Of a stretch of 64,000 nucleotides of DNA, positions 25,210 to 43,330 are shown piece after piece. Source of the stretch: Pseudoxanthomonas yeongjuensis (GTDB lineage Bacteria; Pseudomonadota; Gammaproteobacteria; Xanthomonadales; Xanthomonadaceae). A program made the translations under genes and the position numbers. Under the pieces are notes generated by a model that saw only the letters and a list, made by a program, of their open reading frames with translations, did no database searches and was not told the DNA's origin. Position 1 is the first letter of the stretch; each line of letters starts with the position of its first letter. Where the stretch lies: positions 434,001-498,000 of the forward strand of contig NZ_PDWT01000001.1 of assembly GCF_010093345.1 (NCBI RefSeq), read 5' to 3'.

Positions 25210-25242
25210 TTGACTTTACATATGTTGTTGGAAACGTTTACA
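25210..25242 (+). promoter_or_regulatory. LacI-type operator upstream of the lacI gene
   Basis: TGGAAACGTTTACA at 25229-25242 is, on the minus strand, TGTAAACGTTTCCA, one base from a perfect palindrome. It lies 42 bases before the regulator's start and just downstream of a possible -35 box TTGACT (25210-25215), so binding would block its own promoter. The same motif recurs at 26349-26362 and 43317-43330. Confidence 0.75.
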
Positions 25243-25283
25243 GTCCGCCCAGCTTGCTGAGTCCGAATCGTTGAGGGCAGCGA

Positions 25284-26324
25284 ATGGCGCGAACCACAGT
25301 CACCATCAAGGATGTCGCACGCGAGGCTTCGGTCTCCGTCGCCACCGTGTCGCGCGCATTGAACGGACACGAGAATGTCGCCGAGGGCGTGCGCAAGCAT
25401 GTGGTCGAAATCGCCAGCCGCCTGCGCTACCAGCCGCATGCCGCCGCGCGCAGCCTCAGCAGCCGCAGCACCCAGACCATCGGCGTGGTCCTGCCCGACC
25501 TGTATGGCGAGTTCTTCTCGGAACTGATCCGCGGTATCGACGTGGTCGCCCGGGCCCACCGCAAGCATCTGCTGGTTTCCAGTTACCACGGCCATCCGGA
25601 AGAGCAAGGCGAGGCATTGCGGGCCATGCGTGGTCGTGTCGATGGCCTGCTGGTGCTGTCGCCGTACGCGGATCGTCCCGGGTTCCTGACCGACAACCTG
25701 CCCACGGCTCTGCCGGCGGTATTGATCAACACCCAGTTGGCCGATGCCGCCTATCCGGTGTTGAGCATCGACAATTTCGGTGGCGCCACGGCCATGGTCC
25801 GGCACCTGGCCGAAGCCGGGCACCAGCGTATCGCCTTCATCTGTGGCCCCGAGGACAACTTCGATGCGCGCGAGCGCCTGCGTGGCTACCGCAGCGCGCT
25901 GGCTGAATATCTACCGGGGGCCGAGGCCCTGGAACTGCCGGGCGATTTCGACGAGTCGTCCGGTTATGAGGCCGGCAAGCTGATCCTGACGGAGAAGCAA
26001 CGCCCGGATGCGGTTTTCGCGGCCAACGACATGATGGCGTTGGGTTGCCTGTACGCCTTCAACGAGGCCGGCGTGAAAGTCCCGACGGACATCGCCCTGG
26101 CTGGTTTCGACGACATCCCGCTCGCGCGTTTCGTCCATCCCACTCTGACCACGATGCGGATCAGCATCGCCGAACTGGGCGGACTGGCGCTTTCCCGCCT
26201 GTTGCAGGCGATAGAAGCCGATGGCGTCGCCGATCTCACTCCCCATACCCTGGCGCCCGAGTTGATCGTGCGCGAATCGACCCTGCATGCAACGCGCCAG
26301 CGAGCGAAAGCCGGCGATATTTGA
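25284..26324 (+). CDS. LacI-family transcriptional regulator of the glucan locus
   Basis: A protein of 346 residues. The N-terminal helix-turn-helix VTIKDVAREASVSVATVSRA and hinge (YQPHAAARSLSSRST) are followed by a periplasmic-binding-protein-like sugar sensor with FDDIPLARFVHPTLTTMR near the end. Shared palindromes with central CG, in front of this gene, of the TonB-dependent receptor and of bglA, suggest autoregulation and control of the whole locus. The inducer is probably a sugar derived from the imported glucan. Confidence 0.9.
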   Translation: MARTTVTIKDVAREASVSVATVSRALNGHENVAEGVRKHVVEIASRLRYQPHAAARSLSSRSTQTIGVVLPDLYGEFFSELIRGIDVVARAHRKHLLVSSYHGHPEEQGEALRAMRGRVDGLLVLSPYADRPGFLTDNLPTALPAVLINTQLADAAYPVLSIDNFGGATAMVRHLAEAGHQRIAFICGPEDNFDARERLRGYRSALAEYLPGAEALELPGDFDESSGYEAGKLILTEKQRPDAVFAANDMMALGCLYAFNEAGVKVPTDIALAGFDDIPLARFVHPTLTTMRISIAELGGLALSRLLQAIEADGVADLTPHTLAPELIVRESTLHATRQRAKAGDI

Positions 26325-26348
26325 GTCACGCGTTTTTTTGATCTGAAA

Positions 26349-26362
26349 TGTAACCGGTTCCA
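26349..26362 (+). promoter_or_regulatory. LacI-type operator upstream of the TonB-dependent receptor
   Basis: TGTAACCGGTTCCA, with perfect core AACCGGTT, lies 44 bases before the receptor start. It matches the other two sites in the pattern TGTAAmCGkTTyCA. No clear -35/-10 pair was recognised around it. Confidence 0.75.
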
Positions 26363-26406
26363 ATTGCTGTTCTCATCCGACTGCCAACCCTGGGAGGGGA
26401 GAGGTC

Positions 26407-29400
26407 ATGAAAAACCAGAAGCAACGCAACATCCGTCCCACCCGCAAGCTGCTGACCTGCGCGCTGGCAAGTTGCCTGATGCTGGGCGTGGCGCCAACGG
26501 TGTTCGCGCAATCCACGGGCGCGACCCTGCGCGGCCAGGTATCCGCGGATTCCGCGCCCGCCACGGATGCGAAAGTCACCGCAACCAACCTTGCCACGGG
26601 CCTGACCCGCAGCGTGCAGGCCAATGCCAATGGCGGCTACTCGCTGGGTGGTCTGCCGCCCGGTGCCTATCGCATCGATGTTGCCGCCGGAGGCAAGACG
26701 AACTCGCAGAACGTAACTCTGCAGGTGGGTCAAACGGCTACCGTTAATCTCGGCGTAGGCGGTGTCGCGGAGACAACAGCAGGTGAAGCCACCAACCTCG
26801 ATGCCATCACCGTGATCGCACCGATGCTGGTCGAAACGAAGACATCGGAAGTAGCCACCTACGTGACCCAGAAGCAGATCCAGGCTTTGCCGCAAGCCTC
26901 ACGCAATTTCCTTGCATTCGCCGACATCGTGCCCGGTGTCCAGTTCTCGACGGGAGCGGAAGGGTCTACTTCATTGCGAAGCGGCGCCCAGCTTTCCAAC
27001 GGCATCAATGTATTCATCGATGGTGTCGGCCAGAAGGATTATGTGCTGAAAGGCGGCATCACCGGCCAGGACTCCAGTCGAGGGAATCCATTTCCCCAGC
27101 TGGGCATCGCCGAATACAAGGTCATCACCTCGAACTACAAGGCCGAGTACGACCAGCTCAGCAGCGCCGGCATCACGGCGGTGACGCAATCGGGTACCAA
27201 CGATTTCCACGGAAGTTTCTTCTGGGACAAGACCGGGAATGACTGGACCGCCAAAACCGTCCGTGAAGAGAAGGGACTGACGGAACAGCCGCAATCCAAG
27301 GACGAGCAGTACGGCTTCTCGTTGGGTGGTCCGATCATCAAGGATGCGATGCATTTCTTCTTCGCTTACGAAGGGAAGGACTACAACTCTCCCCGTTCGG
27401 TGACTCCAGGGCGGCAATTCCAGGTCGAGGATCTTCCGGCGCGGTTCCAGGAAGCTGCCAGGGCCTCGTTCGGCGCGCCATTCCACGAGGATCTGTACTT
27501 CGGCAAGATCGACTGGGCTTTCGGAGACGCCCATCTGTTCGAATTGACCATGAAACGGCGCGAAGAAGACGAGCTCACCAACGTAGGCAACGGCCCCAAT
27601 GTCAAGGCCTACGGCACATTGAAGACAGGAGAGGAAACCCGTGTCGACCTGCGCTACCAGTACAGCGCGGAGAACTGGTTGAACGATGCCCACGTCACTT
27701 TCGAGGACACCAATTTCGCTCCGCGGCCGGCAACCCTCGAGAACGGATACAAATTGTTCGTGCCGCGGATCGGCCAGGAAGCCAATAACAACCCGGACAT
27801 GGAGGAAGTGCTCAATCTCGGCGGCGGCGGGGACTACCAGAACAAGGGGCAGCGGGGCTATGCCTTCCAGAACGATTTCACTTTCTTCGGATGGGAAGGC
27901 CATACGATCAAGGCCGGCCTCAAGTACAAGGCGATCGACATAACCGCCTTCGAGAAATCGCCCTACACCCCGCAATACCGGTACGACATCAACCAGGACC
28001 TGGACATCCCGTATTTCGTGCAGTTCACGGCTTCCGGCAATGGCTTCCCGACCTCGGTTGAATCGAACGCCAAGCAACTGGGGATCTACCTGCAGGACGA
28101 CTGGGCGGTCAACGAGCATCTGACTCTGAATCTGGGCGTGCGTTGGGACTACGAACAGAACCCCAGCTACGAAGATCACGTGACGCCCGCCACCTTGGTG
28201 TCCGCGCTGCAGAACTACCCGAACATAAACAATCCCGGCGTCGATTACGATTACAACGACTACATCAGCACCGGCAACAATCGCGATTCGTTCAAGGACG
28301 GATGGCAGCCGCGGCTGGGGTTTTCCTATGACTTCAATGGCGACCAGCGCCATGTATTGTTCGGTGGCGCAGGACGCTCGTACAACCGCAACCAGTTCGA
28401 TTATCTTTCCTACGAGCAGTATCGCCTTGCTTTCCAGCGCTATGAATTCTCGTTCAATACTCCTGGGCATTCCTGCGTCGTCGACAATACTTTCTGCTAC
28501 AACTTCGATCCGAGCTACCTGAATCCCGACACCTTGGCCGGACTGGTCGATCCGGGCACCAACTTCGGCTCGGAGGTCTTCCTGCTCAACAACGACCTGA
28601 AAACCCCTTATTCCGACCAGTTCAGCCTCGGGATGCGCAACACCTTCGAATTGTTCGGCAACGACTGGAATTCCTCGGTCACCTTGCTGCATATCCGCAG
28701 TCATGACGGAATCCTGTTCGCCTTGGGTAATCGCAATCCGGATGGCAGCTATTTCCCGCCCGGGCTCGAGTTCGGCAACGGTAATGTGGTGGGCAACAAC
28801 CCGCTACCCGGATACAGGCAGTTTTTCCTTGGCGACAATGCCGTGGAGACGAAACTCAATTCGGTATTGCTCTCGCTCGACAAGCCTTATACACAGGCAT
28901 CGGGCTGGGGCGTGAGCGTCGCCTACACCTACAGTGATGCAAAGGAGAACCGGAACAACTCCGACATATTCACCTTCGACTACCCCAATCTCGACAATGT
29001 CGGATTCACGTCCGCGCTGGGCATCGCCAAGCATCGATTGGTGACTACGGGCATCGTCGATTTCTGGGGCTTCACCGTTTCCGGGAAACTGACGTTGGCT
29101 TCGCCTGTCGCTAAAGAGGCGCTCAACTGCTACGACACCACTGTTGCGGGAAACTGCTATTTCGATCCGTTCTTCGCCTCCGATACGATCGGCTACAAGC
29201 AGTTCGACATGGCATTGCAGAAGGAATGGAATACCGGCACGGACCTCAAGCTGCGGGTTCGCGCGGACATGCTCAATGTCTTCAACTGGCGCAATTACAC
29301 GGACTACTCGACATGGCGCGGTTTTGACCACAATCCAGATCCTGCCTACGGCAGCCGTAATGGTGACGGCATCCTGCTGCCCACCCGCACGTTCAAGCTG

Positions 29401-29421
29401 TCCTTCGGTCTGGACTGGTAG
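26407..29421 (+). CDS. TonB-dependent receptor with N-terminal carboxypeptidase-regulatory-like domain
   Basis: An outer membrane protein of 1004 residues. A signal peptide (to about residue 36) is followed by a CarboxypepD_reg-like beta-sandwich (about 38-115, ATLRGQVSADSAPATDAKV), a TonB-box-like LDAITVIAP, a plug with SLRSGAQLSNGINVFIDGVG, and a beta-barrel ending in aromatic LSFGLDW. The layout is that of Oar-like receptors used by Xanthomonads for carbohydrate polymers. It should bring oligosaccharides through the outer membrane. A LacI-type operator precedes it and a hairpin terminator follows it. Confidence 0.92.
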   Translation: MKNQKQRNIRPTRKLLTCALASCLMLGVAPTVFAQSTGATLRGQVSADSAPATDAKVTATNLATGLTRSVQANANGGYSLGGLPPGAYRIDVAAGGKTNSQNVTLQVGQTATVNLGVGGVAETTAGEATNLDAITVIAPMLVETKTSEVATYVTQKQIQALPQASRNFLAFADIVPGVQFSTGAEGSTSLRSGAQLSNGINVFIDGVGQKDYVLKGGITGQDSSRGNPFPQLGIAEYKVITSNYKAEYDQLSSAGITAVTQSGTNDFHGSFFWDKTGNDWTAKTVREEKGLTEQPQSKDEQYGFSLGGPIIKDAMHFFFAYEGKDYNSPRSVTPGRQFQVEDLPARFQEAARASFGAPFHEDLYFGKIDWAFGDAHLFELTMKRREEDELTNVGNGPNVKAYGTLKTGEETRVDLRYQYSAENWLNDAHVTFEDTNFAPRPATLENGYKLFVPRIGQEANNNPDMEEVLNLGGGGDYQNKGQRGYAFQNDFTFFGWEGHTIKAGLKYKAIDITAFEKSPYTPQYRYDINQDLDIPYFVQFTASGNGFPTSVESNAKQLGIYLQDDWAVNEHLTLNLGVRWDYEQNPSYEDHVTPATLVSALQNYPNINNPGVDYDYNDYISTGNNRDSFKDGWQPRLGFSYDFNGDQRHVLFGGAGRSYNRNQFDYLSYEQYRLAFQRYEFSFNTPGHSCVVDNTFCYNFDPSYLNPDTLAGLVDPGTNFGSEVFLLNNDLKTPYSDQFSLGMRNTFELFGNDWNSSVTLLHIRSHDGILFALGNRNPDGSYFPPGLEFGNGNVVGNNPLPGYRQFFLGDNAVETKLNSVLLSLDKPYTQASGWGVSVAYTYSDAKENRNNSDIFTFDYPNLDNVGFTSALGIAKHRLVTTGIVDFWGFTVSGKLTLASPVAKEALNCYDTTVAGNCYFDPFFASDTIGYKQFDMALQKEWNTGTDLKLRVRADMLNVFNWRNYTDYSTWRGFDHNPDPAYGSRNGDGILLPTRTFKLSFGLDW

Positions 29422-29429
29422 GCAACATG

Positions 29430-29460
29430 CCGACCACTCCCCGGAGGAGTGGTCGGTTTC
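29430..29460 (+). terminator. Hairpin terminator after the TonB-dependent receptor
   Basis: A perfect 11-bp stem CCGACCACTCC / GGAGTGGTCGG (29430-29440 and 29446-29456) with loop CCGGA, followed by TTTC. It starts 9 bases after the receptor stop and should end most transcripts there, so the next gene likely has its own promoter. Confidence 0.8.
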
Positions 29461-29496
29461 CCACCGACGTATCCCATCCAACACAGCATGAAATAG

Positions 29497-29518
29497 GCAT
29501 CCGTCCGCGAACGGATGC
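29497..29518 (+). promoter_or_regulatory. Hairpin in the leader of the glycoamylase-like gene
   Basis: A perfect 8-bp stem GCATCCGT / ACGGATGC with loop CCGCGA lies 30 bases before the start codon at 29548. It may shape the leader mRNA or be a regulator half-site pair. No known motif was recognised. Confidence 0.35.
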
Positions 29519-29547
29519 AATCATTTCCACCAAGGATCCAGGTTTCA

Positions 29548-31173
29548 ATGAAATCCCGCCGCCTGCGTGCAACACTCTGCGTATGCCTTGTCGCGCTGAT
29601 CACCGTGGTGTCGGCGTGCAAGAAGCCTTCGGAGCCGGTGGTGCAACAACCTGTCGTTCCCGCACCGGTCGCAGGGCAACCTGTCGCCAAGCCAGAACCG
29701 CCCGCCAGGCCGGAACTGCCGCCGCTGTTCCACGACATCGAGCGCCGCACCTTCCAGTTCTTCTGGGACACCACCAATGAATTGAACGGACTGACCCCGG
29801 ACCGCTTCCCGTCGCGTCCGTTCGCCAGCATCGCCTCGGTCGGGTTCTCGCTCACCGCGTATCCGATCGGCATCGAGAACAATTGGGTCAGCCGCAACCA
29901 GGCCGTGGACCGGACCCTGCTCACGCTGAAATTCTTCCGCGACCTGCCGCAAGGCCCGCAACGTACCGGCAAGGGCGCCTACAAGGGCTTCTATTACCAT
30001 TTCCTGGACATGCAGAAAGGCCAGCGCTACGACAGCTGGGTGGAACTTTCCAGCGTCGATACCGCGCTGCTGATGATGGGCGTGCTGTTCGCCCAGTCCT
30101 ACTACGACCGCGACGATCCGCGCGAGAAGGAAATCCGCGACATTGCCGAGGAGTTGTACAAGCGCGTCGACTGGAACTGGCTGCAGCAGAACAAGCCGCT
30201 GATCTCGATGGGCTGGTTCCCGGAGAGCGGTTTCATCAAGCACGACTGGAGCGGTTACGACGAGGCCATGATGGTCTACATCCTGGCGCTCGGTTCGCCG
30301 ACCCATCCGGTCAGCCCGGATGCGTGGCAGGTGTGGACGCGCACCTACAACGACGTATGGGGCGTGTACCAGGACCAGGAATTCCTGGCCTTCGGCCCGA
30401 TGTTCGGCCACCAGTACAGCCATGTGTGGGTGGACTTCCGCGGCATCCAGGACGACTACATGCGCGAACGCGGCATGGACTACTTCGAGAACAGCCGCCG
30501 GGCCACGCTCGCGCAGCGTTCCTACGCCATCGCCAATCCGATGAAGTGGAAGGACTACGGCGAGAACGTGTGGGGCCTGACCGCCAGCGACGGGCCGCAG
30601 CAGACTCTGCAGGAATACCGCGGCGAGCAGCGCGAATTCCGCCATTATTCGGCGCGCGGCGCCGGCCTGCGGGTGAACTTCGACGACGGCACCATCGCCC
30701 CGACCGCAGCGCTGGGCTCGTTGCCGTTCGCGCCGGAGATCGTGATCCCGGCGGCGGTGGAGATGCACGACCGTTACGGCGAATACCTGTATTCCAGCTA
30801 TGGCTTCCTGGATTCCTTCAACCGCAGCTTCGACTACGACATCCCGCTCAAGACCGGGCGCCTGGTGCCGGGCGAGGGCTGGGTGGCCAGCGACTACATC
30901 GGCATCGACCAGGGCCCGATCCTGACGATGATCGCCAACTACCGCAACGAGTTCGTGTGGAACGTGATGAAGAAGAATCAGCACATCCGCAAGGGCCTGG
31001 AGCGCGCCGGTTTCAAGGGCGGCTGGTTGACGCCGAAGGACGAACCGGTGCCTCCCGTGGCTCCCGCCGATCCGAAGGCCGCGGCTGCGCGCGAGCTGGG
31101 TGGTGCGGAATCACGTGCCAGTAATCCGGACAACCCGCAACCGGAACCGCCGCGACCGCAGCAACCGAAGTAA
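29548..31173 (+). CDS. Glycoamylase-like (PF10091) lipoprotein, candidate GH144 beta-1,2-glucanase
   Basis: A protein of 541 residues. The signal peptide ends in a lipobox-like VVSAC, then a Pro-rich linker leads to an (alpha/alpha)6-type catalytic region from about residue 55: FHDIERRTFQFFWDTTNELNGL, SIASVGFSLTAYPIGIENNW, GMDYFENSRRATLAQRSYAIANP and NVWGLTASDGP. These are hallmarks of PF10091, whose characterised members include GH144 endo-beta-1,2-glucanases. It is probably tethered to a membrane and cuts the polymer or oligosaccharide before ABC import. Beta-1,2 specificity is an inference from family and context. Confidence 0.83.
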   Translation: MKSRRLRATLCVCLVALITVVSACKKPSEPVVQQPVVPAPVAGQPVAKPEPPARPELPPLFHDIERRTFQFFWDTTNELNGLTPDRFPSRPFASIASVGFSLTAYPIGIENNWVSRNQAVDRTLLTLKFFRDLPQGPQRTGKGAYKGFYYHFLDMQKGQRYDSWVELSSVDTALLMMGVLFAQSYYDRDDPREKEIRDIAEELYKRVDWNWLQQNKPLISMGWFPESGFIKHDWSGYDEAMMVYILALGSPTHPVSPDAWQVWTRTYNDVWGVYQDQEFLAFGPMFGHQYSHVWVDFRGIQDDYMRERGMDYFENSRRATLAQRSYAIANPMKWKDYGENVWGLTASDGPQQTLQEYRGEQREFRHYSARGAGLRVNFDDGTIAPTAALGSLPFAPEIVIPAAVEMHDRYGEYLYSSYGFLDSFNRSFDYDIPLKTGRLVPGEGWVASDYIGIDQGPILTMIANYRNEFVWNVMKKNQHIRKGLERAGFKGGWLTPKDEPVPPVAPADPKAAAARELGGAESRASNPDNPQPEPPRPQQPK

Positions 31174-31182: not shown

Positions 31183-32589
31183 ATGATGGGTTCGACAAAC
31201 AGACAACGGGATCGTCGTCCCCGCGAAGGCGGGGACCCAGTGTCTTTGCCCGGATATGCGCATCATCCCAATGCGCGAAGACACTGGGTCCCCGCCTTCG
31301 CGGGGACAACGAAAATTTGTGTAACGGGCTTGTGCTTGTTCCTGCTTTTTTTCATGGTCGCCTGCAGCCACGAGGCCGACGACCGTGAAGTAGTCACTTT
31401 CTGGGCCATGGGTTACGAAGCCGAGGTCGTCGCCCAACTGATCCCCGAGTTCGAGCGCCGCAACCCCGGCATCCGCGTCGACTTGCAGCAACTGCCGTGG
31501 CTGTCGGCACACGAGAAGCTGCTCACCGCGTTCGCCGGCGAATCCTTGCCGGACGTGTCGCCGATCGGCAACACCTGGATTCCCGAGTTCGTGGCGTTGG
31601 GCGCGCTGGATCCGCTGGACGGGGAAATCGCCGCGACCAGGGACTTCGACGTTGCCGATTATTTCCCGGGCGTGTGGGACAGCGGCGTGGTCGATGGCAA
31701 GGTCCACGCGGTGCCGTGGTACGTGGAAACCCGCCTGCCGTTCTATCGCACCGACCTGCTGGCCAAGGCCGGCGTGAGCACGCAGCCACGCAGCTGGAAC
31801 GAGTGGCTGGCGGCGATGACCGCGGTCAAGCGGGAAGTAGGCCCGGACCGTTACGCGATCCTGTTGCCGTTGAACGAATTCGAACCGCTGCTGAGCCTGG
31901 CTATCCAGCAGCCCGAACCGCTGCTGCGCGACGGTGGGCGCTATGGAAATTTCCGCAGCGCCAGCTTCAAGCGCGCGCTGGGTTTCTACAAGGAAATGTT
32001 CGACCGGAAACTCGCGCCGGTGGTCACCAACAACCAGATATCCAATGTCTGGGACGAATTCGGCAAGGGCTTCTATTCGTATTACATCTCCGGCCCCTGG
32101 AATATCGCCAAGTTCAAGGAGCGCCTGCCGCCCGCGCAGCAGGGCGACTGGATGACGATGCCTTTGCCGGGCCCGGACGGCCCGGGCGCTTCGCTGGCCA
32201 ATGGCACCAGCTTCGTCGTATTCGGCCAGTCGCGGCACAAGGCGGCGGCGTGGAAACTGATCGCCTACCTGTCCACGCCGCAGATCCAGGCGCAGTTCCA
32301 TGCACTCACCGGCGATCTGCCGCCGCGACGTTCGCCCTGGCGGACGCCAGCGTTGGCGAACGATCCGTACGCCAAGGCATTCCGCGAGCAACTCGAACGC
32401 GCGGTACCCACGCCCAAGGTGCCGGAGTGGGAACGCATCGCCCAGGAGATGCGGGTGATCGGCGAGGAAGTGGCCAACGGGCGCATGGACGTGGACCAGG
32501 CGGCGGCGGAACTGGACCGGCGCGCCGACCGGTTCCTGGAGAAGCGGCGCTGGATGCTGGACCAGGCGGCGGAGGCGGGCGCGCCATGA
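31183..32589 (+). CDS. Sugar ABC transporter substrate-binding lipoprotein
   Basis: A family 1 extracellular solute-binding protein of 468 residues from ATG 31183. FYSYYISGPWNIAKFKERLP and GTSFVVFGQSRHKAAAWKLIAYL are typical of the family. The lipobox FMVAC sits unusually far in, at about residue 60, because an inverted repeat (31214-31310) is read in frame between the start and the hydrophobic segment. No ATG lies between the repeat and that segment; a TTG inside it is the only other start nearby. The stop overlaps the first permease (ATGA). Confidence 0.88.
   Translation: MMGSTNRQRDRRPREGGDPVSLPGYAHHPNARRHWVPAFAGTTKICVTGLCLFLLFFMVACSHEADDREVVTFWAMGYEAEVVAQLIPEFERRNPGIRVDLQQLPWLSAHEKLLTAFAGESLPDVSPIGNTWIPEFVALGALDPLDGEIAATRDFDVADYFPGVWDSGVVDGKVHAVPWYVETRLPFYRTDLLAKAGVSTQPRSWNEWLAAMTAVKREVGPDRYAILLPLNEFEPLLSLAIQQPEPLLRDGGRYGNFRSASFKRALGFYKEMFDRKLAPVVTNNQISNVWDEFGKGFYSYYISGPWNIAKFKERLPPAQQGDWMTMPLPGPDGPGASLANGTSFVVFGQSRHKAAAWKLIAYLSTPQIQAQFHALTGDLPPRRSPWRTPALANDPYAKAFREQLERAVPTPKVPEWERIAQEMRVIGEEVANGRMDVDQAAAELDRRADRFLEKRRWMLDQAAEAGAP
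31214..31310. repeat. MITE-like inverted repeat inside the 5' coding region
   Basis: 33-bp arms (31214-31246 and 31278-31310, one mismatch) begin with the palindrome TCCCCGCGAAGGCGGGGA and enclose 31 bases. In frame the right arm reads WVPAFAGTT, a well-known translation of this repeat class. It lies between the start codon and the signal sequence of the sugar-binding protein. Confidence 0.9.
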
Positions 32590-33464: not shown

Positions 33465-33471
33465 AGATCAT

Positions 33472-33535
33472 GCGGGAGGGGCTTCGGCCCCGACGGGATA
33501 ATGGGAAAGGCGTCGGGGCTGAAGCCCCTCCTACA
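33472..33535. repeat. REP-like palindrome between the two permease genes
   Basis: Arms GCGGGAGGGGCTTCGGCCCC and GGGGCTGAAGCCCCTCCTAC around a 27-base spacer. It starts 7 bases after the stop of the first permease and separates two genes that would otherwise be tightly packed. It may adjust the expression of downstream against upstream genes. Confidence 0.88.
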
Positions 33536-33582
33536 AGGGCAGCCGCTCCTGCAGAGGTCGTGCTGATCCGGGAGGTCGGGCG

Positions 33583-34407: not shown

Positions 34408-37400
34408 TTCCGACCGGAAACGAATCGTCGATCAATATCAATTCGTCATTCCCGCGAAGGCGGGAATCGCTCTTTGCGAGTTACCCGATCGACGAAGATC
34501 GTGGGTTGCACGGAGACCAAGAAACCAGAGCGATTCCCGCCTTCGCGGGAATGACGAGTTTATTTTTTGCAAGCGCGCTTATTGGACTTGCCTCCTTTGG
34601 CGCTCATGCGCAGAACAAATCCAGGGTCCTGGACGACTTCAGCGATGCCTCCGAGTGGCGCGCCGTCACCTCCAACCAGGTCAGCGGCAGGCTCCGCCAG
34701 GTCGATGGCGCGCAGGGCAAGGCGTTGTGCCTGGACTACGACTTCAATGGCGTGTCCGGTTACGCCGGCATCCAGCGCGACCTGGCGTTGGAGTACCCGG
34801 AGAACTACCGGTTCGATTTCCAGTTGCGCGGCGATTCACCGAAGAACGACCTGCAGTTCAAGCTGGTCGACACCAGCGGCGACAATGTGTGGTGGGTCAA
34901 CAAGCCGAAGTACGGCTATCCGCACGAGTGGACCGGCGTGGTCTACAAGAAGCGGCATATCGGCAAGGCCTGGGGGCCGGATCCGGACCGCGTGCTGCGC
35001 AACAGCGCGAAGCTGGAGTTCACGGTCTACAACAATGCAGGCGGCAAGGGCTCGGTCTGTTTCGACGAACTGACCTTCACCGTGCTGCCCGCCGAAGATC
35101 GTTCACCGCTCACTGCCACGGCCAGCGCCTCGGTCGCCAATGGCAGCGGCGTGGCGGGCAATGCGGTGGACGGTGATGCCGCGACGGCCTGGTACGCCGA
35201 TTTCGCTGCACGGACGCAACCCCGGCTGACCCTGGACATGGGCAAGCTGCGCGAGTTCGGTGGCCTGAAGCTGGCATGGAAGGAGGGCGAATTCGCTTCG
35301 GATTATCTGTTGCAGCTGTCGGACGATGGTGCGGACTGGCGCGATGTGCGTACTGTGGTGGGTGGCAATGGTGGGACCGATTACCTGGCGCTGCCCGAAT
35401 CGGAAGCGCGCTACCTGCGACTCAGCGTGGCATCAGGACCCGGAAAATCATTCGGACTGGCCGAGGCCACGGTCCAGCCTCTGGAATTCGCGGCCACACC
35501 CAACGATTTCATCAGGTCGGTGGCCAGCGAATCCCCGCGAGGCTGGTATCCACGTGGTTTCACCGGCGAACAGCCTTACTGGACCATCGTCGGCCTGGAT
35601 GGCGGCACCGAGCAGGCGTTGATCGGCGAAGACGGAGCGGTGGAAGTGGCCAAGGGAGGCTTCAGCATCGAGCCCTTCGTCATCGCCGACCGCAAGCTCG
35701 TCACCTGGGCCGATGTGGAAACCATGCAGTCGTTGCAGGACGGTTACCTGCCGATTCCCAGCGTGGACTGGAAGCATGAAGCGTTCTCGCTGCAGGTGAC
35801 CGCATTCGCGCAGGGCACGCCACAACATTCGCAACTGGTGACGCGTTATCGCCTGACCAACACCGGCGAGGCGCCGGGCCGGTTCGCATTGGCGCTCGCG
35901 GTGCGGCCGCTGCAGGTGAATCCGCCGACCCAGTTCCTCAGTACCGTCGGCGGGGTCAGCGAAATCCATGGGTTGACGGTCCGGGAAGGAACTGTCGGCG
36001 TGGAGGGCGTGCCGCGTGTGCGCGCCAACAGGAAATCGCTCGCTGCGTTCGCAAGTCCCTTCGATTCTGGCGATATCGTGCAGCGGCTCGCGGATTTGGA
36101 ATGGGCTTCTTTTTCCGACCAGACAGAAACGATGGGAGTCCACTATCGCGGGCCCGATACCGGCGAAGACGCGGTCGATGACCCTACCGGCCTGGCTTCG
36201 GGCGCCTTGCTGTATCGCGTGTTGCTGGCGCCGGGTGAGACCTATGAAGTCGACCTGATCGCACCCATGACGGGTGGCTTCGAGAAGGGAGCCGTATCGG
36301 GTTTTCCGGAAGAAGCCGAGGTTCTGCAGAAGCGCGTGGCGGACCAGTGGCGCGGCAAACTCGACCGCGTGCATATCGAGGTTCCGCCGCAAGGCCAGGA
36401 CTTGGTCGATACCCTGCGCACGGCCGCCGCGCACATGCTGATCTCGCGCATCGGTCCGCGCCTGCAACCGGGCACGCGCTCGTATGCGCGTAGCTGGATC
36501 CGCGACGGGGCGATGATTTCCGAAGGCCTGCTGCGCATGGGCCGCGAGGACGTGGTGCGCGACTACGTGGACTTCTACGCGCCGTACCAGTTCGAGAACG
36601 GCATGGTCCCGTGCTGCGTGGACGACCGCGGCAGCGACCCGGTGCCGGAGAACGACAGCCATGGCGAGCTGATCTTCAACATCGCCGAACTGTATCGCTA
36701 CAACGGCGACAAGGCATTCCTGCGGAAGATGTGGCCGCACGTTCTGGGCGCCTGGACCTACATGGAGAAGTTGCGCCAGCGCGAGCGTACCGAGGCCAAT
36801 CGCGCGCTCAATCCCGCGTTCTACGGGATGATGCCGGCGTCGATCAGCCATGAGGGTTATTCGGCCAAGCCCATGCATTCCTACTGGGACAACTTCTGGG
36901 CCTTGCGTGGCTACAAGGATGCGGTGGAAGTGGCGCAATGGCTGGGCAAGGCCGAAGACGCCAAACGATTCGCTGTCGCGCGCGATCAGTTCCGCGATGA
37001 TTTGTACGACTCCCTGCGCGCGGCCGCGAAGCTGCACGACATCGACTTCCTGCCGGGAGCGGCGGAGCTTGGCGATTTCGACGCGACTTCCACCACCATC
37101 GCGCTGGCGCCGGGTGGGGAGCAGGGCAGGCTGCCCAAGGACTTGCTGGACAATACCTTCGAGCGTTACTGGCGCGAATTCGTACAACGCCGCGACGGCA
37201 AGCGCGAATGGAAGGACTACACCCCCTATGAATGGCGCAACGTCGCCGCGTTCGTGCGCCTGGGCTGGCGCGAGCGCGCCTGGGAGACGGTGCGGTTCTT
37301 CTTCAAGGACCGCGCGCCGCAGCCCTGGAACCAGTGGGCGGAAGTCGTGTCGCGCACCCCGCGCAAGCCGTTCTTCGTCGGCGACCTGCCGCATGCGTGG

Positions 37401-37757
37401 GTGGCATCGGATTTCGTGCGTTCGACGCTGGACATGTTCGCCTACACCCGCGAGATCGACGACAGCATCGTGCTGGCCGCAGGTATTCCGGCCGATTGGC
37501 TGGAAGGCGAGGGCATTGCGATCCGCGATTTGCGCACGCCGGATGGAAAGTTGGGGTATGCGTTGCGCCGGGCAGGTGGAAAGCTCGAATTGCAGGTCGG
37601 CGAGGGATTGGAGGTGCCTGCTGGCGGCCTGGTGCTGCCGTGGCCCTATGCCTCCGTACCCGGCAAGGCCACGGTGAATGGCAAGCCGGCGGCATGGACC
37701 GACAGCGAGTTACGCATCTTGTCGTTACCCGCAAAGGTCAGCATCGAAGCTCCATAG
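34404..37757 (+). CDS. Large exported protein with discoidin domain and six-hairpin-glycosidase-like region
   Basis: The chosen start overlaps the permease stop (ATGA) behind a GGGGAG site and gives 1117 residues. A second start at 34551 is where a typical signal peptide (FFASALIGLASFGAHAQ) begins. An inverted repeat is read in frame between the two starts. Domains: a carbohydrate-binding-like sandwich (about 75-230), a discoidin/F5-8C domain (about 235-360), a beta-sandwich region, and an (alpha/alpha)6 helical region from about 665 with SYARSWIRDGAMISEGLLRMGR and WNQWAEVVSRTPRKPFFVGDLPHAW, as in six-hairpin glycosidases. It probably acts on the imported glucan in the periplasm. The exact family is not recognised. 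Confidence 0.82.
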   Translation: MIPTGNESSININSSFPRRRESLFASYPIDEDRGLHGDQETRAIPAFAGMTSLFFASALIGLASFGAHAQNKSRVLDDFSDASEWRAVTSNQVSGRLRQVDGAQGKALCLDYDFNGVSGYAGIQRDLALEYPENYRFDFQLRGDSPKNDLQFKLVDTSGDNVWWVNKPKYGYPHEWTGVVYKKRHIGKAWGPDPDRVLRNSAKLEFTVYNNAGGKGSVCFDELTFTVLPAEDRSPLTATASASVANGSGVAGNAVDGDAATAWYADFAARTQPRLTLDMGKLREFGGLKLAWKEGEFASDYLLQLSDDGADWRDVRTVVGGNGGTDYLALPESEARYLRLSVASGPGKSFGLAEATVQPLEFAATPNDFIRSVASESPRGWYPRGFTGEQPYWTIVGLDGGTEQALIGEDGAVEVAKGGFSIEPFVIADRKLVTWADVETMQSLQDGYLPIPSVDWKHEAFSLQVTAFAQGTPQHSQLVTRYRLTNTGEAPGRFALALAVRPLQVNPPTQFLSTVGGVSEIHGLTVREGTVGVEGVPRVRANRKSLAAFASPFDSGDIVQRLADLEWASFSDQTETMGVHYRGPDTGEDAVDDPTGLASGALLYRVLLAPGETYEVDLIAPMTGGFEKGAVSGFPEEAEVLQKRVADQWRGKLDRVHIEVPPQGQDLVDTLRTAAAHMLISRIGPRLQPGTRSYARSWIRDGAMISEGLLRMGREDVVRDYVDFYAPYQFENGMVPCCVDDRGSDPVPENDSHGELIFNIAELYRYNGDKAFLRKMWPHVLGAWTYMEKLRQRERTEANRALNPAFYGMMPASISHEGYSAKPMHSYWDNFWALRGYKDAVEVAQWLGKAEDAKRFAVARDQFRDDLYDSLRAAAKLHDIDFLPGAAELGDFDATSTTIALAPGGEQGRLPKDLLDNTFERYWREFVQRRDGKREWKDYTPYEWRNVAAFVRLGWRERAWETVRFFFKDRAPQPWNQWAEVVSRTPRKPFFVGDLPHAWVASDFVRSTLDMFAYTREIDDSIVLAAGIPADWLEGEGIAIRDLRTPDGKLGYALRRAGGKLELQVGEGLEVPAGGLVLPWPYASVPGKATVNGKPAAWTDSELRILSLPAKVSIEAP
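34443..34557. repeat. MITE-like inverted repeat supplying a start codon
   Basis: Perfect 31-bp arms at 34443-34473 and 34527-34557 enclose 53 bases and contain the palindrome TCCCGCGAAGGCGGGA. The right arm ends GGGAATGACGA; its ATG (34551) is the alternative start of the large exported protein. Read in frame the arms give SFPRRRES and IPAFAGMT, the familiar translation of this element class. Confidence 0.92.
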
Positions 37758-38002: not shown

Positions 38003-38021
38003 AAATGCGGTCTGTCGCTCT

Positions 38022-38681
38022 TTATGTGCCGCGGACCTTGCCGACGATGGCTGCGGCCTTGGCCGAGCTAGCGGTCACCTTGTCCCATTCCCCGGCTTCG
38101 ATCCAGTTCTTCGGGACCATCCACGAACCGCCGATGCACACGACGTTAGGTTGCGACAGGTAATCGGCCGCGTCGTCCTCGGTGATGCCGCCGGTCGGGC
38201 AGATCTTCAAGTCCGACAGCGGGCCTGCCAGCCCTTTCAGCATCGCCAGTCCACCGACCGCGTTGGCCGGGAACAACTTGCACACGCGGAAACCACGTGC
38301 CATCAGCGACAGCAATTCGGTCGGCGTGGCCGCACCGGGAACAACGGGAATAGGCGCCTTGGCGAGAGCATCGGCCATTTCCGCAGGCGTGCCGGGAGTA
38401 ACCAGGAAATCCGCGCCGGCGGCGATCGACTGTTCCATCTGCCCGATGGTCAGCACTGTGCCAGCGCCGATCACGATGTCCGGCAGTTCCTTCTTCAGCA
38501 TCGCCAGTGCTTCCATCGCCACCGGCGTGCGCAGGGTCAGCTCGATCGCCGGCAGCCCGCCTTGCAGCAAGGCTGCCGATACCTTGCGCGCTTCATCCAG
38601 CGTATACACGGTGACGACGGGAAGGATGCCGGCGGCGCGGAGCAGTTGTTCGGCTTTTTGCTGGTGCTGGGCGATGGTCAT
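38022..38681 (-). CDS. eda: 2-dehydro-3-deoxy-phosphogluconate aldolase
   Basis: A class I aldolase of 219 residues. The Schiff-base lysine lies in RVCKLFPAN, the catalytic Glu in AIELTLRTP, and the phosphate-binding region is CPTGGI. It splits KDPG into pyruvate and glyceraldehyde-3-phosphate, the last step of the Entner-Doudoroff pathway. It lies 17 bases after edd and is co-transcribed with it. Confidence 0.95.
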   Translation of the reverse strand: MTIAQHQQKAEQLLRAAGILPVVTVYTLDEARKVSAALLQGGLPAIELTLRTPVAMEALAMLKKELPDIVIGAGTVLTIGQMEQSIAAGADFLVTPGTPAEMADALAKAPIPVVPGAATPTELLSLMARGFRVCKLFPANAVGGLAMLKGLAGPLSDLKICPTGGITEDDAADYLSQPNVVCIGGSWMVPKNWIEAGEWDKVTASSAKAAAIVGKVRGT

Positions 38682-38698
38682 TCGTTTATCCGTGGTTC

Positions 38699-40609
38699 TC
38701 AGGCGTCTTTGGCTTCATGCGGTGCGGCGGCCGCTGCATGATCATGACCCAACTCGTATTCCGCATCGTATTCCCAGCCGCCTTCCGGCGTCGGCGGGCC
38801 GCAGGAAATCGACAGCGCGCCCTGGTCGGCCGGCGTCACCAGGTTGCGATTCCAGGCGAACAGGTTCCGGCCCAGGTCGTGCGCCGCCGGCGCGGTGTTG
38901 GACGCGTGCGCGCGTGCGTTCCATTCGTCAGCGTCGACCAGCACTTCCAGCGTGCCGGCTGCGGCATCGAGGCGGATCATGTCGCCTTCGCGGAGTTTTC
39001 CGATGGGGCCGCCGCGCGCGGCTTCGGGAGTAAGGTGGATCGCGGCGGGGATCTTGCCGGAGGCGCCGGACAGGCGGCCGTCGGTGACCAGGGCCACGCG
39101 CCGTCCCTGGTTCTGCAGCAGGCCCAGCAGCGGTGCCAGCGAATGCAGTTCCGGCATGCCGTTCGCACGCGGTCCCTGGTAACGCACCACGGCGATGAAA
39201 TCCTGCGGCAGCACGCCGGCGGCATGCAATTTATTGAGTGCGCGCGGGTCGTCGATGACCACCGCGGGCGCTTCGATGCGATGGTATTCCGGCTTCACCG
39301 CCGAGATCTTGATCAGCGAACGGCCCAGGTTGCCGCGCAGCAGGCGCAGTCCGCCGTGCGGATCGAAGGCATCGCCGACCGGCCGCACCACGGCTTCGTC
39401 GGCGCTTTTCTCGATGCCGGGCGAATAATCCAGCTTGCCGTCGGCCAGGCGTGGTTCGTCGCAGTACGCGCGCATGCCGCCTGGGACCACGGTGGCGATG
39501 TCGCCATGCATCAGCCCGGCATCGATCAGTTCGCGGAATACGAACTGGGTGCCGCCAGCGGCGGCGAAACGGTTCACGTCGGCCTCGCCATTGGGATACA
39601 CGCGCGCCAGCAGCGGCACGGTCTGCGAGAGCTGGTCCATGTCGTCCCAGGTCAGCATGATGCCGGCGGCACGGGCCACCGCGATCCAGTGGATGGTGTG
39701 GTTGGTGGAACCACCAGTGGCCATCAGCGCGACCATCGCGTTGACGATGGCGCGTTCGTCGATCAACTGGCCGATCGGGCGATAGTCGTTGCCGAGCGCG
39801 GTGATGCGCAGCGCCCGCTCGGTCGCGGCGCGGGTCAGCGCGTCGCGCAACGGCGTGCCCGGATTGACGAAGGAAGCCCCCGGCAGCTGCAGGCCCATCG
39901 CTTCCAGCAGCACCTGGTTGGAATTGGCGGTGCCGTAGAAGGTGCAGGTGCCCGCGGCATGGTACGACGCGGCCTCCACTTCCAGCAGTTCCTCGCGCGT
40001 GGCTTCGCCGGCGGCGTAACGCTCGCGCACTTCGGCCTTCTGCTTGTTGGGAATGCCCGGAGTCATCGGCCCGGCAGGCACGAACATCGCCGGCAGGTGG
40101 CCGAAGGCGAGGGCGCCGATCAGCAGTCCCGGCACGATCTTGTCGCATACGCCCAGGTACAGCGCCGCGTCGAACATGTCGTGGCTGAGCGAGATGGCGG
40201 TGGCCTGGGCGATGTTGTCGCGAGAGAACAGCGACAGCTCCATGCCCGGGCGCCCCTGGGTGACGCCGTCGCACATCGCCGGCACGCCGCCGGCGACCTG
40301 CGCGGTGGCGCCGAGTTCGCGCGCGGCCCGGCGCACGATTTCCGGGTAATGCTCGAACGGCTGGTGCGCCGAGAGCATGTCGTTGTAGGCGTTGATGATG
40401 CCCAGGTTGGGGGTCGCGTCGGCGCGCAATCGGCCTTTGTCGGGGCCGCTGGCGGCGAAGGCATGGGCCAGGTTGCCGCAGCTCAGGCGGGTGCGGTTGG
40501 GCCCCTCGCGGTGCGCGGCCTCGATGCCTTCCAGGTAGGCGCGGCGCGAATCGGCGCTGCGCTGGCGGATGCGTTCGGTGACTTCGTGGAGGTGGGGATG
40601 CAGGGTCAT
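38699..40609 (-). CDS. edd: Phosphogluconate dehydratase
   Basis: An IlvD/Edd family dehydratase of 636 residues from [14 protein letters not shown]. Cys residues for the [4Fe-4S] cluster are in [10 protein letters not shown] and [15 protein letters not shown]-type and [13 protein letters not shown] segments are also present. It converts 6-phosphogluconate to KDPG. The frame is open for 36 more codons upstream, but those run through the direct-repeat boxes and lack homology. The 232-base gap before it carries two GntR-like boxes, so edd-eda has its own promoter. Confidence 0.94.
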
Positions 40610-40698
40610 GGCGGAAGGCTGGGTCTGCGGGAAAGGCAGAAAGCGACCGGTAGGGATGATCGGCTGGCCAGCGGCAGCGCGGCGAATCTCCACCACGA

Positions 40699-40716
40699 GA
40701 TACCAGCAAAATACCA
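40699..40716 (-). promoter_or_regulatory. Direct-repeat box TGGTATT-N4-TGGTATC upstream of edd
   Basis: On the minus strand TGGTATTTTGCTGGTATC places two 7-base repeats exactly 11 bases apart, one helical turn, 90 bases before the edd start. The form matches the NagQ (GntR-type) box TGGTATT-N4-TGGTATT described for the N-acetylglucosamine regulon of Xanthomonas, as recalled. Confidence 0.65.
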
Positions 40717-40794
40717 ATTATCCGAACCCATTCGCTCCGGATCTGCGTCGCAGCTATCTTAACTGTTCTTGCACTTGAATTTGCGAGAATATTG

Positions 40795-40812: not shown

Positions 40813-40841
40813 GTGCTGTCGATGCGACGGGTGGTCCCGGG

Positions 40842-41846
40842 TCACTTCGCTGCGAGGCTTTCCATGGCGAACGCCGCGGCACCGAGCAATCCTGGCTGCG
40901 GATGGACCACCACCAGCGTAGGTACCCTGGCCATGGCCGGCGAGAACCGGCCCTTGTGTTCGAAGCGCTGGCGGAAGCCGGAATGCTGCAGCGACGACAG
41001 CAGTTTCGGCGCCAGGCCGCCGGTGAGGAACACCCCATCCCAGGCCCCGGCGCTGAGCACCAGGTCGCCGGCGATGGCGCCGAACACCGCGCAGAACACG
41101 TCCAGCGTGCGCATGCAGCGTGGATCGCCGGCGGCGGCACGCGCGGTCACGTCCGCGGGCTGCATCGGGCCCGGGTCTTCGCCCGCGATCTCGCTCAGGG
41201 CGCGATGCAGATTGACCAGGCCGGGACCGCAGATCAGGCGTTCATTGGACACGCGACCGAACTGCGCGGAGAGTTTTTCGAGGATTTCGATTTCTTCCGG
41301 CGTGCCCGGCGGGAAGCTGACGTGGCCGCCTTCGGTTTCGAGCGCATGGCGGTGGCCGTTGCGAACCAGCAGTCCACCCACGCCCAGCCCGGTGCCTGGG
41401 CCGATGACCGCATAGGTCCTGTCCTCGGAAACAGCGGCGGGCGACCAGCGGGCGCCGCCGATCGCGACCACATCGGCCGCCGTCAGCAACGACACCGCCA
41501 TCGCCTGCGCGGCGAAGTCGTTGACCAGTCGCAGTCCATCGAAACCCAGCGCGCTGCGCGTGCGCGACAACGAGATGACCCAGGGGTGGTTGGTGATGCG
41601 CGCTTCGTCGCCATCCACGCGGCCGGCGACGGCGAACACGCCGTTCTGCGCAATGGCGCCAGTCTGGTCGAGGTAGTGCCGGGCGGCGTCGGCGAGCGAG
41701 GGGAAATCCGCCACCGCGTATTCGCCGATGCTGTCGACGATCAAAGGGGTTGCCAGCGACGTATCGGCCAAGGCGAAACGCGCATTGGTGCCGCCGATGT
41801 CGGCGAGCAGCACGCGCGCGGCCGAAGCGGTAGCGGAGCCGGTCAT
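40842..41846 (-). CDS. glk: Glucokinase
   Basis: A protein of 334 residues of the Glk family (PF02685). The ATP site LLADIGGTNARFALAD, the sugar-binding ITNHPWVIS and VNDFAAQAMAVSLL, and the second phosphate motif IGPGTGLGVGGL are all present. It phosphorylates the glucose freed by the beta-glucosidase just upstream, feeding the Entner-Doudoroff genes downstream. The gap to bglA is 49 bases, so the two are likely one transcript. Confidence 0.93.
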   Translation of the reverse strand: MTGSATASAARVLLADIGGTNARFALADTSLATPLIVDSIGEYAVADFPSLADAARHYLDQTGAIAQNGVFAVAGRVDGDEARITNHPWVISLSRTRSALGFDGLRLVNDFAAQAMAVSLLTAADVVAIGGARWSPAAVSEDRTYAVIGPGTGLGVGGLLVRNGHRHALETEGGHVSFPPGTPEEIEILEKLSAQFGRVSNERLICGPGLVNLHRALSEIAGEDPGPMQPADVTARAAAGDPRCMRTLDVFCAVFGAIAGDLVLSAGAWDGVFLTGGLAPKLLSSLQHSGFRQRFEHKGRFSPAMARVPTLVVVHPQPGLLGAAAFAMESLAAK

Positions 41847-41895
41847 GCGGAGTACTTCAAGCGATGGTTACAAAGAGTATTCCGCGGCATCCGGC

Positions 41896-43257
41896 TCAAT
41901 CGTCCTCGTTGGTCAGCGCTGTGCCGTGACTGGCGACAACCTTCGCATAGTAACGTGCGCTGTCCTTCGGTGTGCGGGTCTGGGTTTCGAAGTCCACATG
42001 GACGATACCGAACCGTTTGGAGTAGCCCAGCGACCACTCCAGGTTGTCCAGCAGCGACCAGACGAAGTAACCGCCGATGTCGCATCCGGCTTCGATGGCG
42101 GCATGCACCGCGCGCAGATGCTGGCGCAGGTAGCTGAGCCGCAACGGGTCGCGCACGCGTCCACGCTCGGCCTTGGGCGGATCGAAGAAGGCCGCGCCGT
42201 TCTCGGTGATGAAGACTTTCGGATTTCCGTAGCGTTCCTTGACCCATACCAGAGTATCGGTCAGCCCTTGCGGGAAAACCTCCCAGCCGGTTTCCGTATA
42301 CGTATGCTGTTTCTGCCGGACCGGTGCGACCTTCAGCGGCCAGTTCGATTCCTCGTGCCTGGACACGTTGCGGGTGTAGTAGTTGACGCCGATGAAATCC
42401 AGCGGCTGCCTGATCAGGTCCATGTCCTCCTGCGACCACTCCGGCCAGGCTTCGCCGAAGATCTCGCGCAGTTCTTCCGGATAGGTACCGAAGAACGCCG
42501 GGTCCAGGTACTGGCGATTCATGTAGGCCTCGGCGCGTCGGGTCGCGGCGAGGTCTTCGGGACTGTCGCTGGCCGGGTACTTCGGCTCGATGTTCACCAC
42601 CAGGCCGATCTCGTGCTTGCCGGCCTCGCGGTACGCCTTCACCGCGGCGCCATGCGCGCGCATCAGGTTGTGCGAGGCGATGGGCGCTTCGAAACGGTTG
42701 CGGTGGCCCGGCGCCAGCGCGCCATGCAGGTAGCCGCCATCGGTGACCACCCACGGCTCGTTGAGCGTGGCCCAGCGCTTGATGCGGCCGTCTAAGCGTT
42801 CGAACATCACCCGTCCGTAATCGGCGAACCAGTCGGCGATGTCGCGGTTCAACCAGCCGCCCTGGTCGTCGAGCGCGGCGGGCAGGTCCCAGTGGAACAG
42901 GGTGGCGACCGGCTCGATGCCGTTTTCCAGCAGGGTGTCGACCAGCCGCTCGTAGAAGTCCAGGCCTTTCTGGTTCACCCGGCCCTTGCCTTCGGGCAGC
43001 ACGCGGCTCCAGGAAATACTGAAACGGTAGGCCTGCATCCCCAGTTCTTTCATGATCGCGATGTCTTCGCGCCAGCGGTTGTAGTGGTCGCAGGCCACGT
43101 CGCCGGTGTCGTCGTTGAGCATCCGGCCCGGGGTGTGGGCGAAGCGTTGCCAGATGCTGGGACCAGCACCGTCGGCGAGTGGGGAACCTTCGATCTGGTA
43201 GGCGGCGGTGGCGCTGCCCCAGACGAAGCCTTCCGGGAACTGGTAAATATTCGACAT
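41896..43257 (-). CDS. bglA: GH1 beta-glucosidase
   Basis: A protein of 453 residues from MSNIYQFPEGF behind a GGAGGGG site. The acid/base Glu167 is in TLNEPWV and the nucleophile Glu352 in ITENGAAF; YRFSISWSRVLPEGKG and NWPLKV-type segments complete the GH1 picture. There is no signal peptide, so it works in the cytoplasm on imported disaccharides or oligosaccharides. A LacI-type operator lies 60 bases before the start. The frame is open 52 codons further upstream through the operator, which is not a likely start. Confidence 0.94.
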   Translation of the reverse strand: MSNIYQFPEGFVWGSATAAYQIEGSPLADGAGPSIWQRFAHTPGRMLNDDTGDVACDHYNRWREDIAIMKELGMQAYRFSISWSRVLPEGKGRVNQKGLDFYERLVDTLLENGIEPVATLFHWDLPAALDDQGGWLNRDIADWFADYGRVMFERLDGRIKRWATLNEPWVVTDGGYLHGALAPGHRNRFEAPIASHNLMRAHGAAVKAYREAGKHEIGLVVNIEPKYPASDSPEDLAATRRAEAYMNRQYLDPAFFGTYPEELREIFGEAWPEWSQEDMDLIRQPLDFIGVNYYTRNVSRHEESNWPLKVAPVRQKQHTYTETGWEVFPQGLTDTLVWVKERYGNPKVFITENGAAFFDPPKAERGRVRDPLRLSYLRQHLRAVHAAIEAGCDIGGYFVWSLLDNLEWSLGYSKRFGIVHVDFETQTRTPKDSARYYAKVVASHGTALTNEDD

Positions 43258-43316
43258 GGCCCCTCCGGCGGTGTCGTGGATCATGCTTGGGTGATGTTGG
43301 CTATGGGGTTGCGTTG

Positions 43317-43330
43317 TGAAAACGGTTACA
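43317..43330 (-). promoter_or_regulatory. LacI-type operator between bglA and the ATPase gene
   Basis: The minus strand reads TGTAACCGTTTTCA, matching TGTAACCGGTTCCA (26349-26362) and TGTAAACGTTTCCA (25229-25242). It lies in the divergent promoter region and could control both bglA-glk and the ABC ATPase. Confidence 0.75.

Follow-up and report, generated by a model that had tools for sequence, protein, structure and literature searches.

The locus considered here lies in a stretch of 64,000 nucleotides from Pseudoxanthomonas yeongjuensis (contig NZ_PDWT01000001.1, positions 434,001 to 498,000), referred to below, at its whole length, as the window. It raises the question of whether three copies of one 14-base-pair (bp) sequence, placed before the genes of a LacI-type regulator, a TonB-dependent receptor (TBDR) and a β-glucosidase, are operators of a single regulon and, if so, which sugar that regulon serves. 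An earlier note on this DNA had proposed one autoregulated local regulator that governs both uptake and hydrolysis of a glucan. The rarity of the motif and its conservation at the lacI, TBDR/GH144 and bglA/ugpC promoters support a single regulator for both functions. We consider it quite likely, from sequence comparisons, that the LacI protein encoded at 25284-26324 represses both its own gene and a regulon for the use of β-1,2-glucan.

From 25284 onwards the plus strand carries, in this order, lacI, the TBDR gene, the gene of a glucanase of glycoside hydrolase family 144 (GH144), a sugar-binding protein gene, two permease genes and gh6h, which encodes a glycosidase-like protein. Beyond gh6h the minus strand carries eda, edd, glk and bglA, and ugpC diverges from bglA. 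A TBDR, a sugar regulator, a degrading enzyme and an inner-membrane transporter are thus encoded together, which is the gene set of a CUT locus.

Operator sites: sequence, position and rarity

The three sites, O1 to O3, are the following.

25229..25242, TGTAAACGTTTCCA on the minus strand, TGGAAACGTTTACA on the plus strand: operator O1, 41 bp 5′ of the lacI ATG at 25284
26349..26362, TGTAACCGGTTCCA: operator O2, 44 bp 5′ of the TBDR ATG at 26407
43317..43330, TGTAACCGTTTTCA on the minus strand: operator O3, between bglA and ugpC, 59 bp 5′ of the bglA ATG at 43257 (minus strand)

Checked against the window, their sequences, strands and coordinates are those reported earlier, and the spacings agree with the 40-60 bases claimed. 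All are imperfect palindromes, in which 12 (O1), 12 (O2) and 10 (O3) of the 14 positions agree with the reverse complement. The window contains three exact matches to the 14-bp pattern; when up to two mismatches are allowed, six rows are obtained, which are the same three sites on both strands (shuffled mean 0.66, largest 4). In the whole genome (G000; 3,937,172 bases in 28 contigs) TGTAAMCGKTTYCA has four exact matches and the reversed control none. With one mismatch allowed the counts are 7 and 4, and the motif is therefore distinctive only in its exact form. The symmetric pattern TGNAANCGNTTNCA occurs at six places, its control at none. The concern that the motif might be common at unrelated places in the genome is answered by these counts, since in exact form it is rare. 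A weight matrix trained on 109 distinct sites from relatives gives the three window sites scores of 25.6, 23.8 and 22.5, all within the training range (minimum 18.7); behind them in the window come a decayed GH144 operator, at 6.1, and then background, at 0.7.

The lacI gene and its promoter

Two features define this region.

25284..26324, plus strand: lacI, LacI/GalR-family regulator with recognition residues V-A, TVSR group (Pfam PF00356/PF13377)
25215..25244, plus strand: candidate lacI promoter, with -35 TTTACA at 25215-25220, an 18-bp spacer and -10 TACAGT at 25239-25244 overlapping O1

Named genomes were scanned with the LacI protein, and the counts of named loci given here and below refer to the best 80 of 507 confirmed relatives. 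These belong to Pseudoxanthomonas, Xanthomonas, Stenotrophomonas, Luteimonas and Lysobacter, together with two [Pseudomonas] records and several metagenome-assembled genomes. An exact TGNAANCGNTTNCA is found at most 120 bp 5′ of lacI in all 80 loci, compared with 0.013% of mononucleotide-shuffled regions; each locus, in other words, has an even palindromic operator with a central CG near its own regulator gene.

The candidate promoter is the sole promoter-like site that a promoter scan found in 25100-26450 (shuffles mean 0.3). Conservation around O1 was assessed in 64 distinct segments, in which 10 defining positions are fixed by the motif match itself. The flank from -8 to -1 is near random (0.03-0.31 bits), and outside the motif the -35-like TTTACA at -14 to -9 (1.0-1.7 bits) and a T at +15 (2.0 bits) are conserved; this T, at 25244, is kept in 64/64 segments. 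The right half of O1 would make up most of this candidate -10 element, an arrangement that suits repression. O1 is very probably the autoregulatory operator of lacI, and the earlier claim of autoregulation is strengthened by a site that is present 5′ of lacI in every locus and overlaps a conserved -10-like element.

The TBDR and GH144 promoters

Downstream of lacI, four features bear on the second operator.

26407..29421, plus strand: TBDR with a carboxypeptidase-regulatory-like N-terminal domain, for outer-membrane uptake (PF13620, PF25183, PF00593)
29429..29457, plus strand: hairpin with a 12-bp stem between the TBDR and GH144 genes (z -3.58)
29516..29529, TGCAATCATTTCCA: decayed operator, central CG changed to CA
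29548..31173, plus strand: GH144 β-1,2-glucanase, by eye a predicted lipoprotein (PF10091); the open reading frame (ORF) runs from 29515, and Met 29548 is the likelier start

An exact site lies between lacI and the first TBDR gene in 24/78 loci, two loci being without a TBDR match, and 5′ of the GH144 gene in 56/79. Either gene, or both, has a site in 68 of the 80 loci (both in 12), and most Stenotrophomonas loci have one 5′ of the GH144 gene and none 5′ of the TBDR gene. At the place of the decayed operator P. gei has an intact TGTAACCGCTTCCA. The hairpin may possibly act as a partial terminator or as an mRNA stabiliser. A run of seven T is present at 26333-26339, shortly 5′ of O2, and T runs also occur 5′ of the TBDR operator in most relatives shown.

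The divergent bglA/ugpC promoter

O3 lies between two divergent genes.

41896..43257, minus strand: bglA, GH1 β-glucosidase (PF00232; TIGR03356 above cut-off)
43331..43340, plus strand: TGGCAGAATA, invariant block adjoining O3, read as the extended -10 of ugpC
43470..44552, plus strand: ugpC, ATPase of an ATP-binding cassette (ABC) transporter, MalK/UgpC type (NF008653 above cut-off)

Each genome was counted once for O3 (32 locus rows, several loci per genome), which left 19 genomes in which ugpC diverges from bglA or glk. The partner of ugpC is bglA in 14 Pseudoxanthomonas genomes and one Lysobacter, and glk in the other four. An O3-type site is kept in 18 of the 19, comprising 14/15 with bglA and 4/4 with glk instead; G006 is the exception. 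In the Lysobacter genome about 437 kb of one contig separate the bglA/ugpC pair from lacI, and the O3 site is still present. TGGCAGAATA directly follows the O3 site in 15/15 promoters shown and looks like an extended -10 element for the divergent ugpC. As site and block both persist in genomes that lack bglA there, ugpC probably ranks with bglA among the main targets of O3, which perhaps also serves glk-edd-eda. The assignment of O3 as the bglA operator is to be extended: the site is 59 bp 5′ of bglA, and it also abuts the invariant block on the ugpC side and persists beside ugpC without bglA. The operator stays with the divergent gene pair even where one gene is absent or the pair is far from the regulator gene. 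The motif is therefore kept in relatives with the same locus at the same promoters (lacI, TBDR or GH144, bglA/ugpC), as the earlier proposal would have it. As a separate observation, the ugpC leader contains, at 43357-43436, a 24-nucleotide inverted repeat that is 88% complementary, with 32 nucleotides between its arms.

Which sugar does the regulon serve?

The remaining genes of the predicted pathway are these.

31183..32589, plus strand: ABC sugar-binding lipoprotein, matching 3uor and Lin1841 (5ysb); the N-terminus of the ORF includes a repeat and the true start is probably later
32586..33464, plus strand: ABC permease 1, MalF/UgpA type (PF00528)
33583..34407, plus strand: ABC permease 2, MalG/UgpE type (PF00528)
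38022..38681, minus strand: eda, 2-keto-3-deoxy-6-phosphogluconate aldolase (TIGR01182 above cut-off; PF01081)
38699..40717 (ORF limit), minus strand: edd, phosphogluconate dehydratase (TIGR01196 above cut-off); an ATG near 40609 is the likelier start
40842..41846, minus strand: glk, glucokinase (PF02685; TIGR00749 above cut-off)

The best structure match of the GH144 product is 8xul, that is XCC2207 of X. campestris (946 bits, E 5.6e-284, ORF residues 31-547), and this near full-length homology to a characterised GH144 enzyme places it in the family. The gene is present in 79 of the 80 loci; the remaining one, L087, ends before that place. XCC2207, or XcSGL, is described as a β-1,2-glucanase with narrow specificity for β-1,2-glucans (PMC12102758), and Lin1841 as a protein that binds β-1,2-gluco-oligosaccharides (PMC12369401). 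UgpC probably serves the permeases encoded at 32586-34407. Because the GH144 protein matches XcSGL and the binding protein is related to Lin1841, the sugar is most likely β-1,2-glucan; the earlier term 'glucan regulon' stands as far as glucan is concerned, but is to be narrowed in this way.

It is also conceivable, though unlikely, that the same regulon serves another β-glucan, for instance cello- or laminari-oligosaccharides. GH1 enzymes are broad in specificity, and a GH3 enzyme belongs to the regulon of at least one relative. The closest solved relative of the binding protein is 3uor (541 bits), which we take to come from X. citri and for which a ligand was not found in the literature, and not Lin1841 (221 bits). 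Against another β-glucan stands the near-constant presence of a GH144 gene whose product matches an enzyme narrow for β-1,2-glucan (PMC12102758).

Candidate members outside the locus

The fourth exact match in the genome is on contig C22, 51 bp 5′ of an ORF with a DUF481 domain.

G000 contig C22:253911-254770 (L004, L205): outer-membrane-like DUF481 gene, unlinked to the locus, with a conserved operator

Its site scores 23.1 with the weight matrix, within the training range. In the genus, 30 loci were examined out of 36 matches in 34 genomes, and an exact site was found 5′ of the DUF481 gene in 24/30 and a site with one mismatch in 2/30; of the remaining four, one offered no more than 47 bp of upstream sequence, and the other three share about 40% identity. 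Outside the genus, 11 loci from 10 genomes (15 searched) gave three exact sites and two with one mismatch. The DUF481 gene is, on this sequence evidence, a probable member of the regulon. The idea of one local regulator consequently needs a qualification: the sites are mostly at the local locus, but a fourth is found at a gene on another contig.

Relatives provide further candidate targets. A GH3 β-glucosidase gene with a site adjoins lacI in locus L085, another GH3 gene with a site is found on another contig of G016 (L294), and unlinked gh6h homologues are preceded by sites in G012, G025 and G005 (stretches 25-38% identical). The L085 gene and the gh6h homologues fit the pathway.

One further site precedes the class I fba gene.

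G000 contig C23:46721 (L007), in relatives L175-L204: class I fba site, partly conserved, one half of which (TGCAA) differs from the local sites

In the genus it is exact in 12/30 loci, has one mismatch in 12 more and is missing in either form from six; one is also found in a Stenotrophomonas. Its score, 11.8, is below the training minimum and a TGCAA half occurs in 0/109 training sites, so fba was set aside as a target here, where it is possible only; the site perhaps belongs to another LacI-type regulator. Site C11:1412254 (score 12.5), which is inside an α/β-hydrolase-like coding region, was taken as chance. A second symmetric motif, TGCAATCGATTGCA, was not counted to the regulon, as it adjoins a different LacI protein with recognition residues AG. 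It forms perfect palindromes about 9 kb apart (L281:1199 and 10068, with matching pairs in several relatives), one copy being 33 bp 5′ of the LacI gene with the AG residues, and looks like a separate regulon. Operator-like sites also occur 106 and 224 bp 5′ of lipoyl-synthase-like genes in two relatives (L282:1847, L290:1585), and sites are found in relatives near an S15 peptidase gene, a GH43-like gene, YaeQ and others.

Which LacI protein fits the sites?

The window LacI combines a helix-turn-helix domain (PF00356, 54.1 bits, cut-off 27) with a periplasmic-binding-protein-like sensor (PF13377, 127.2 bits, cut-off 26.5), and is 86-87% identical to the LacI of P. gei and P. sacheonensis. Two recognition residues of such proteins have been linked to two operator bases, and recognition classes have been defined (PMC2978694). 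The recognition helix of the window LacI reads VATVSR, as in the TVSR class. The genome encodes six LacI proteins, and V-A at the recognition positions is found only in this one; the other five have MK, LK, KK, PM and QP. Among its orthologues in the 80 loci, 78 have V-A and the other two did not match the search expression. E. coli GalR, we assume, likewise has V-A at positions 15/16.

The gene was found in 35/37 members of the genus, own genome included, and a further search recovered it in G061 and, as a fragment, in G034. Across 38 genomes of the genus this LacI was missed only in G006, where no match exceeded 35% identity and where bglA/ugpC also has no site. The V-A residues and this joint absence are indirect evidence that the window LacI binds the sites. 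G034 was considered as a lacI-less genome that keeps the site and was rejected, as it has a 52-residue lacI fragment, 96% identical, at a contig end. Genome-wide, relatives contain 5-17 matches each, except G006 (1) and G034 (2).

Matches in such numbers, and the sites at fba and at lipoyl-synthase-like genes, would be expected if the sites were operators of another, more global LacI-type catabolite regulator of which the local lacI is merely one target. We regard this as very unlikely, because the other five LacI proteins differ at the recognition positions, the fba site falls short in score and in its half-site, and the O3-type site accompanies its genes even far from lacI.

Direction of control

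The window LacI could, alternatively, act as an activator at some sites, given that O2 and O3 could sit upstream of start sites that are unmapped. This is highly improbable: O1 overlaps a -10-like element and O3 is just 5′ of the proposed ugpC -10, positions that suit repression. Most improbable of all is that the conserved blocks are promoter elements and not operators, for although O1 contains the -10-like TACAGT and O3 abuts TGGCAGAATA, promoter function leaves unexplained the palindrome, the central CG and the same 14-mer at the O2, GH144, GH3 and DUF481 promoters.

Several points weigh against a β-1,2-glucan regulon under repression by the window LacI. The scan of named genomes is biased to close orthologues, and its 80 loci overlap the set of genus genomes, so that the two sets are not independent. 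O1 is no lone island of conservation, since the stretches at -24 to -20 and at +16 to +22 show moderate conservation too. A consensus promoter scan of 43200-43500, around O3, found no promoter. O2 has no exact counterpart in 54/78 loci, and 12/80 have neither a TBDR nor a GH144 site; the window has only a decayed GH144 operator, with a hairpin before it, and control of the GH144 and ABC genes therefore would rest on read-through. The control for loss of lacI is a single genome, G006, which is 94% complete and 8% contaminated, and in G034 only the fragment at the contig end was seen.

The analysis shows the sites themselves, how rare and how conserved they are, and the promoter-like elements that they overlap or touch; from this we infer LacI binding, the direction of control, the inducer and the protein locations as follows. 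Without inducer, a LacI dimer would occupy the TGNAANCGNTTNCA operators over the promoters of lacI (O1), the TBDR gene (O2) and bglA(-glk-edd-eda)/ugpC (O3), and also the operator of the unlinked DUF481 gene. The inducer that releases the repressor would be a β-1,2-gluco-oligosaccharide or a compound derived from one. The TBDR would then import glucan fragments for periplasmic cleavage by the lipoprotein GH144, the oligosaccharides would be taken up by the ABC transporter with UgpC as its energy source, the GH1 enzyme BglA would free glucose from them, and Glk, Edd and Eda would channel this glucose into the Entner-Doudoroff pathway. In this scheme bglA-glk-edd-eda would be one operon, and the middle genes would be transcribed together with the TBDR gene.

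Relation to known systems

The features described above are those of a typical LacI-type regulon, for the most part apparently local, of which at least one member is probably unlinked. Local regulators of the LacI family (Ravcheev et al. 2014; PMC4052901) share the even palindrome with central CG, autoregulation and sugar-utilisation targets; their operators are mostly 30-140 bp 5′ of the start codon and 72% of the regulators are autoregulated. That study differs in that 'xanthomon' occurs 0 times in its main text, and the part of it used here names no β-1,2-glucan regulon. The SuxR sucrose locus and similar CUT loci of Xanthomonas campestris (PMC1790865) likewise place a LacI/GalR-type repressor beside a TBDR and carbohydrate enzymes. 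The SuxR locus differs in its sugar and in its major-facilitator inner-membrane transporter, and the part of that paper used here mentions no shared operator. The β-1,2-glucan clusters of Listeria innocua and Streptomyces griseus (PMC12369401) resemble the present locus in having a Lin1841-like binding protein alongside an ABC transporter and, in S. griseus, a GH1 β-glucosidase. They differ in that no TBDR or GH144 gene is mentioned in the part used, and 'laci' does not appear in the main text. Our literature search, which left most subscription journals and regulon databases outside its scope, found no earlier description of this regulon. The assignment to β-1,2-glucan, the anatomy of promoters and operators and two uncharacterised proteins, gh6h and DUF481, are newly added here.

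β-1,2-glucans are relevant to bacterial physiology and infection, and enzymes that act on them are still being discovered. The present analysis offers a concrete operator and regulator for their use in Pseudoxanthomonas, Stenotrophomonas, Xanthomonas, Lysobacter and Luteimonas, and draws attention to the two uncharacterised partners. The periplasmic β-1,2-glucan of X. campestris is α-1,6-cyclised (PMC11228985). As a conjecture to which we give only a small chance, one repressor might run a whole Xanthomonadaceae route, from outer membrane to Entner-Doudoroff pathway, for recycling or scavenging periplasmic β-1,2-glucan of the bacteria's own type, in which gh6h would represent a new family of glycosidases for this glucan and the DUF481 protein a new component of its uptake.

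The gh6h protein

34404..37757, plus strand: gh6h, unassigned putative glycosidase, probably exported, with a CBM32-like domain, a β-sandwich and a helical-barrel region

A gh6h match is present in 67 of the 80 loci; in others the available sequence, a 10-kb flank or the contig itself, may stop short of it. The catalytic part has weak Pfam and NCBIfam matches only, and residues 355-1116 gave no sequence match in the PDB at E up to 1. An AlphaFold2 model of these residues (mean pLDDT 78.5, pTM 0.83, 18 sequences) combines a β-sandwich with a helical barrel. Among PDB structures it is matched best by GH94 phosphorylases, with cyclic β-1,2-glucan synthase at rank 10; the top 11 have 12-14% identity, a TM score (query) of 0.51-0.58 and a root-mean-square deviation of 7.5-11.5 Å, and are followed by GH116, GH95 and GH65 enzymes, the family names of some entries being those we presume them to have. 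The gh6h protein may possibly represent a new glycoside hydrolase family.

In-frame repeats at 31210-31312 and 34443-34557 encode 'RPREGGDPVS...HWVPAFAGTT' and 'FPRRRESLF...IPAFAGMT'. They fall in the N-termini of the binding-protein and gh6h ORFs, whose listed starts are therefore probably too early.

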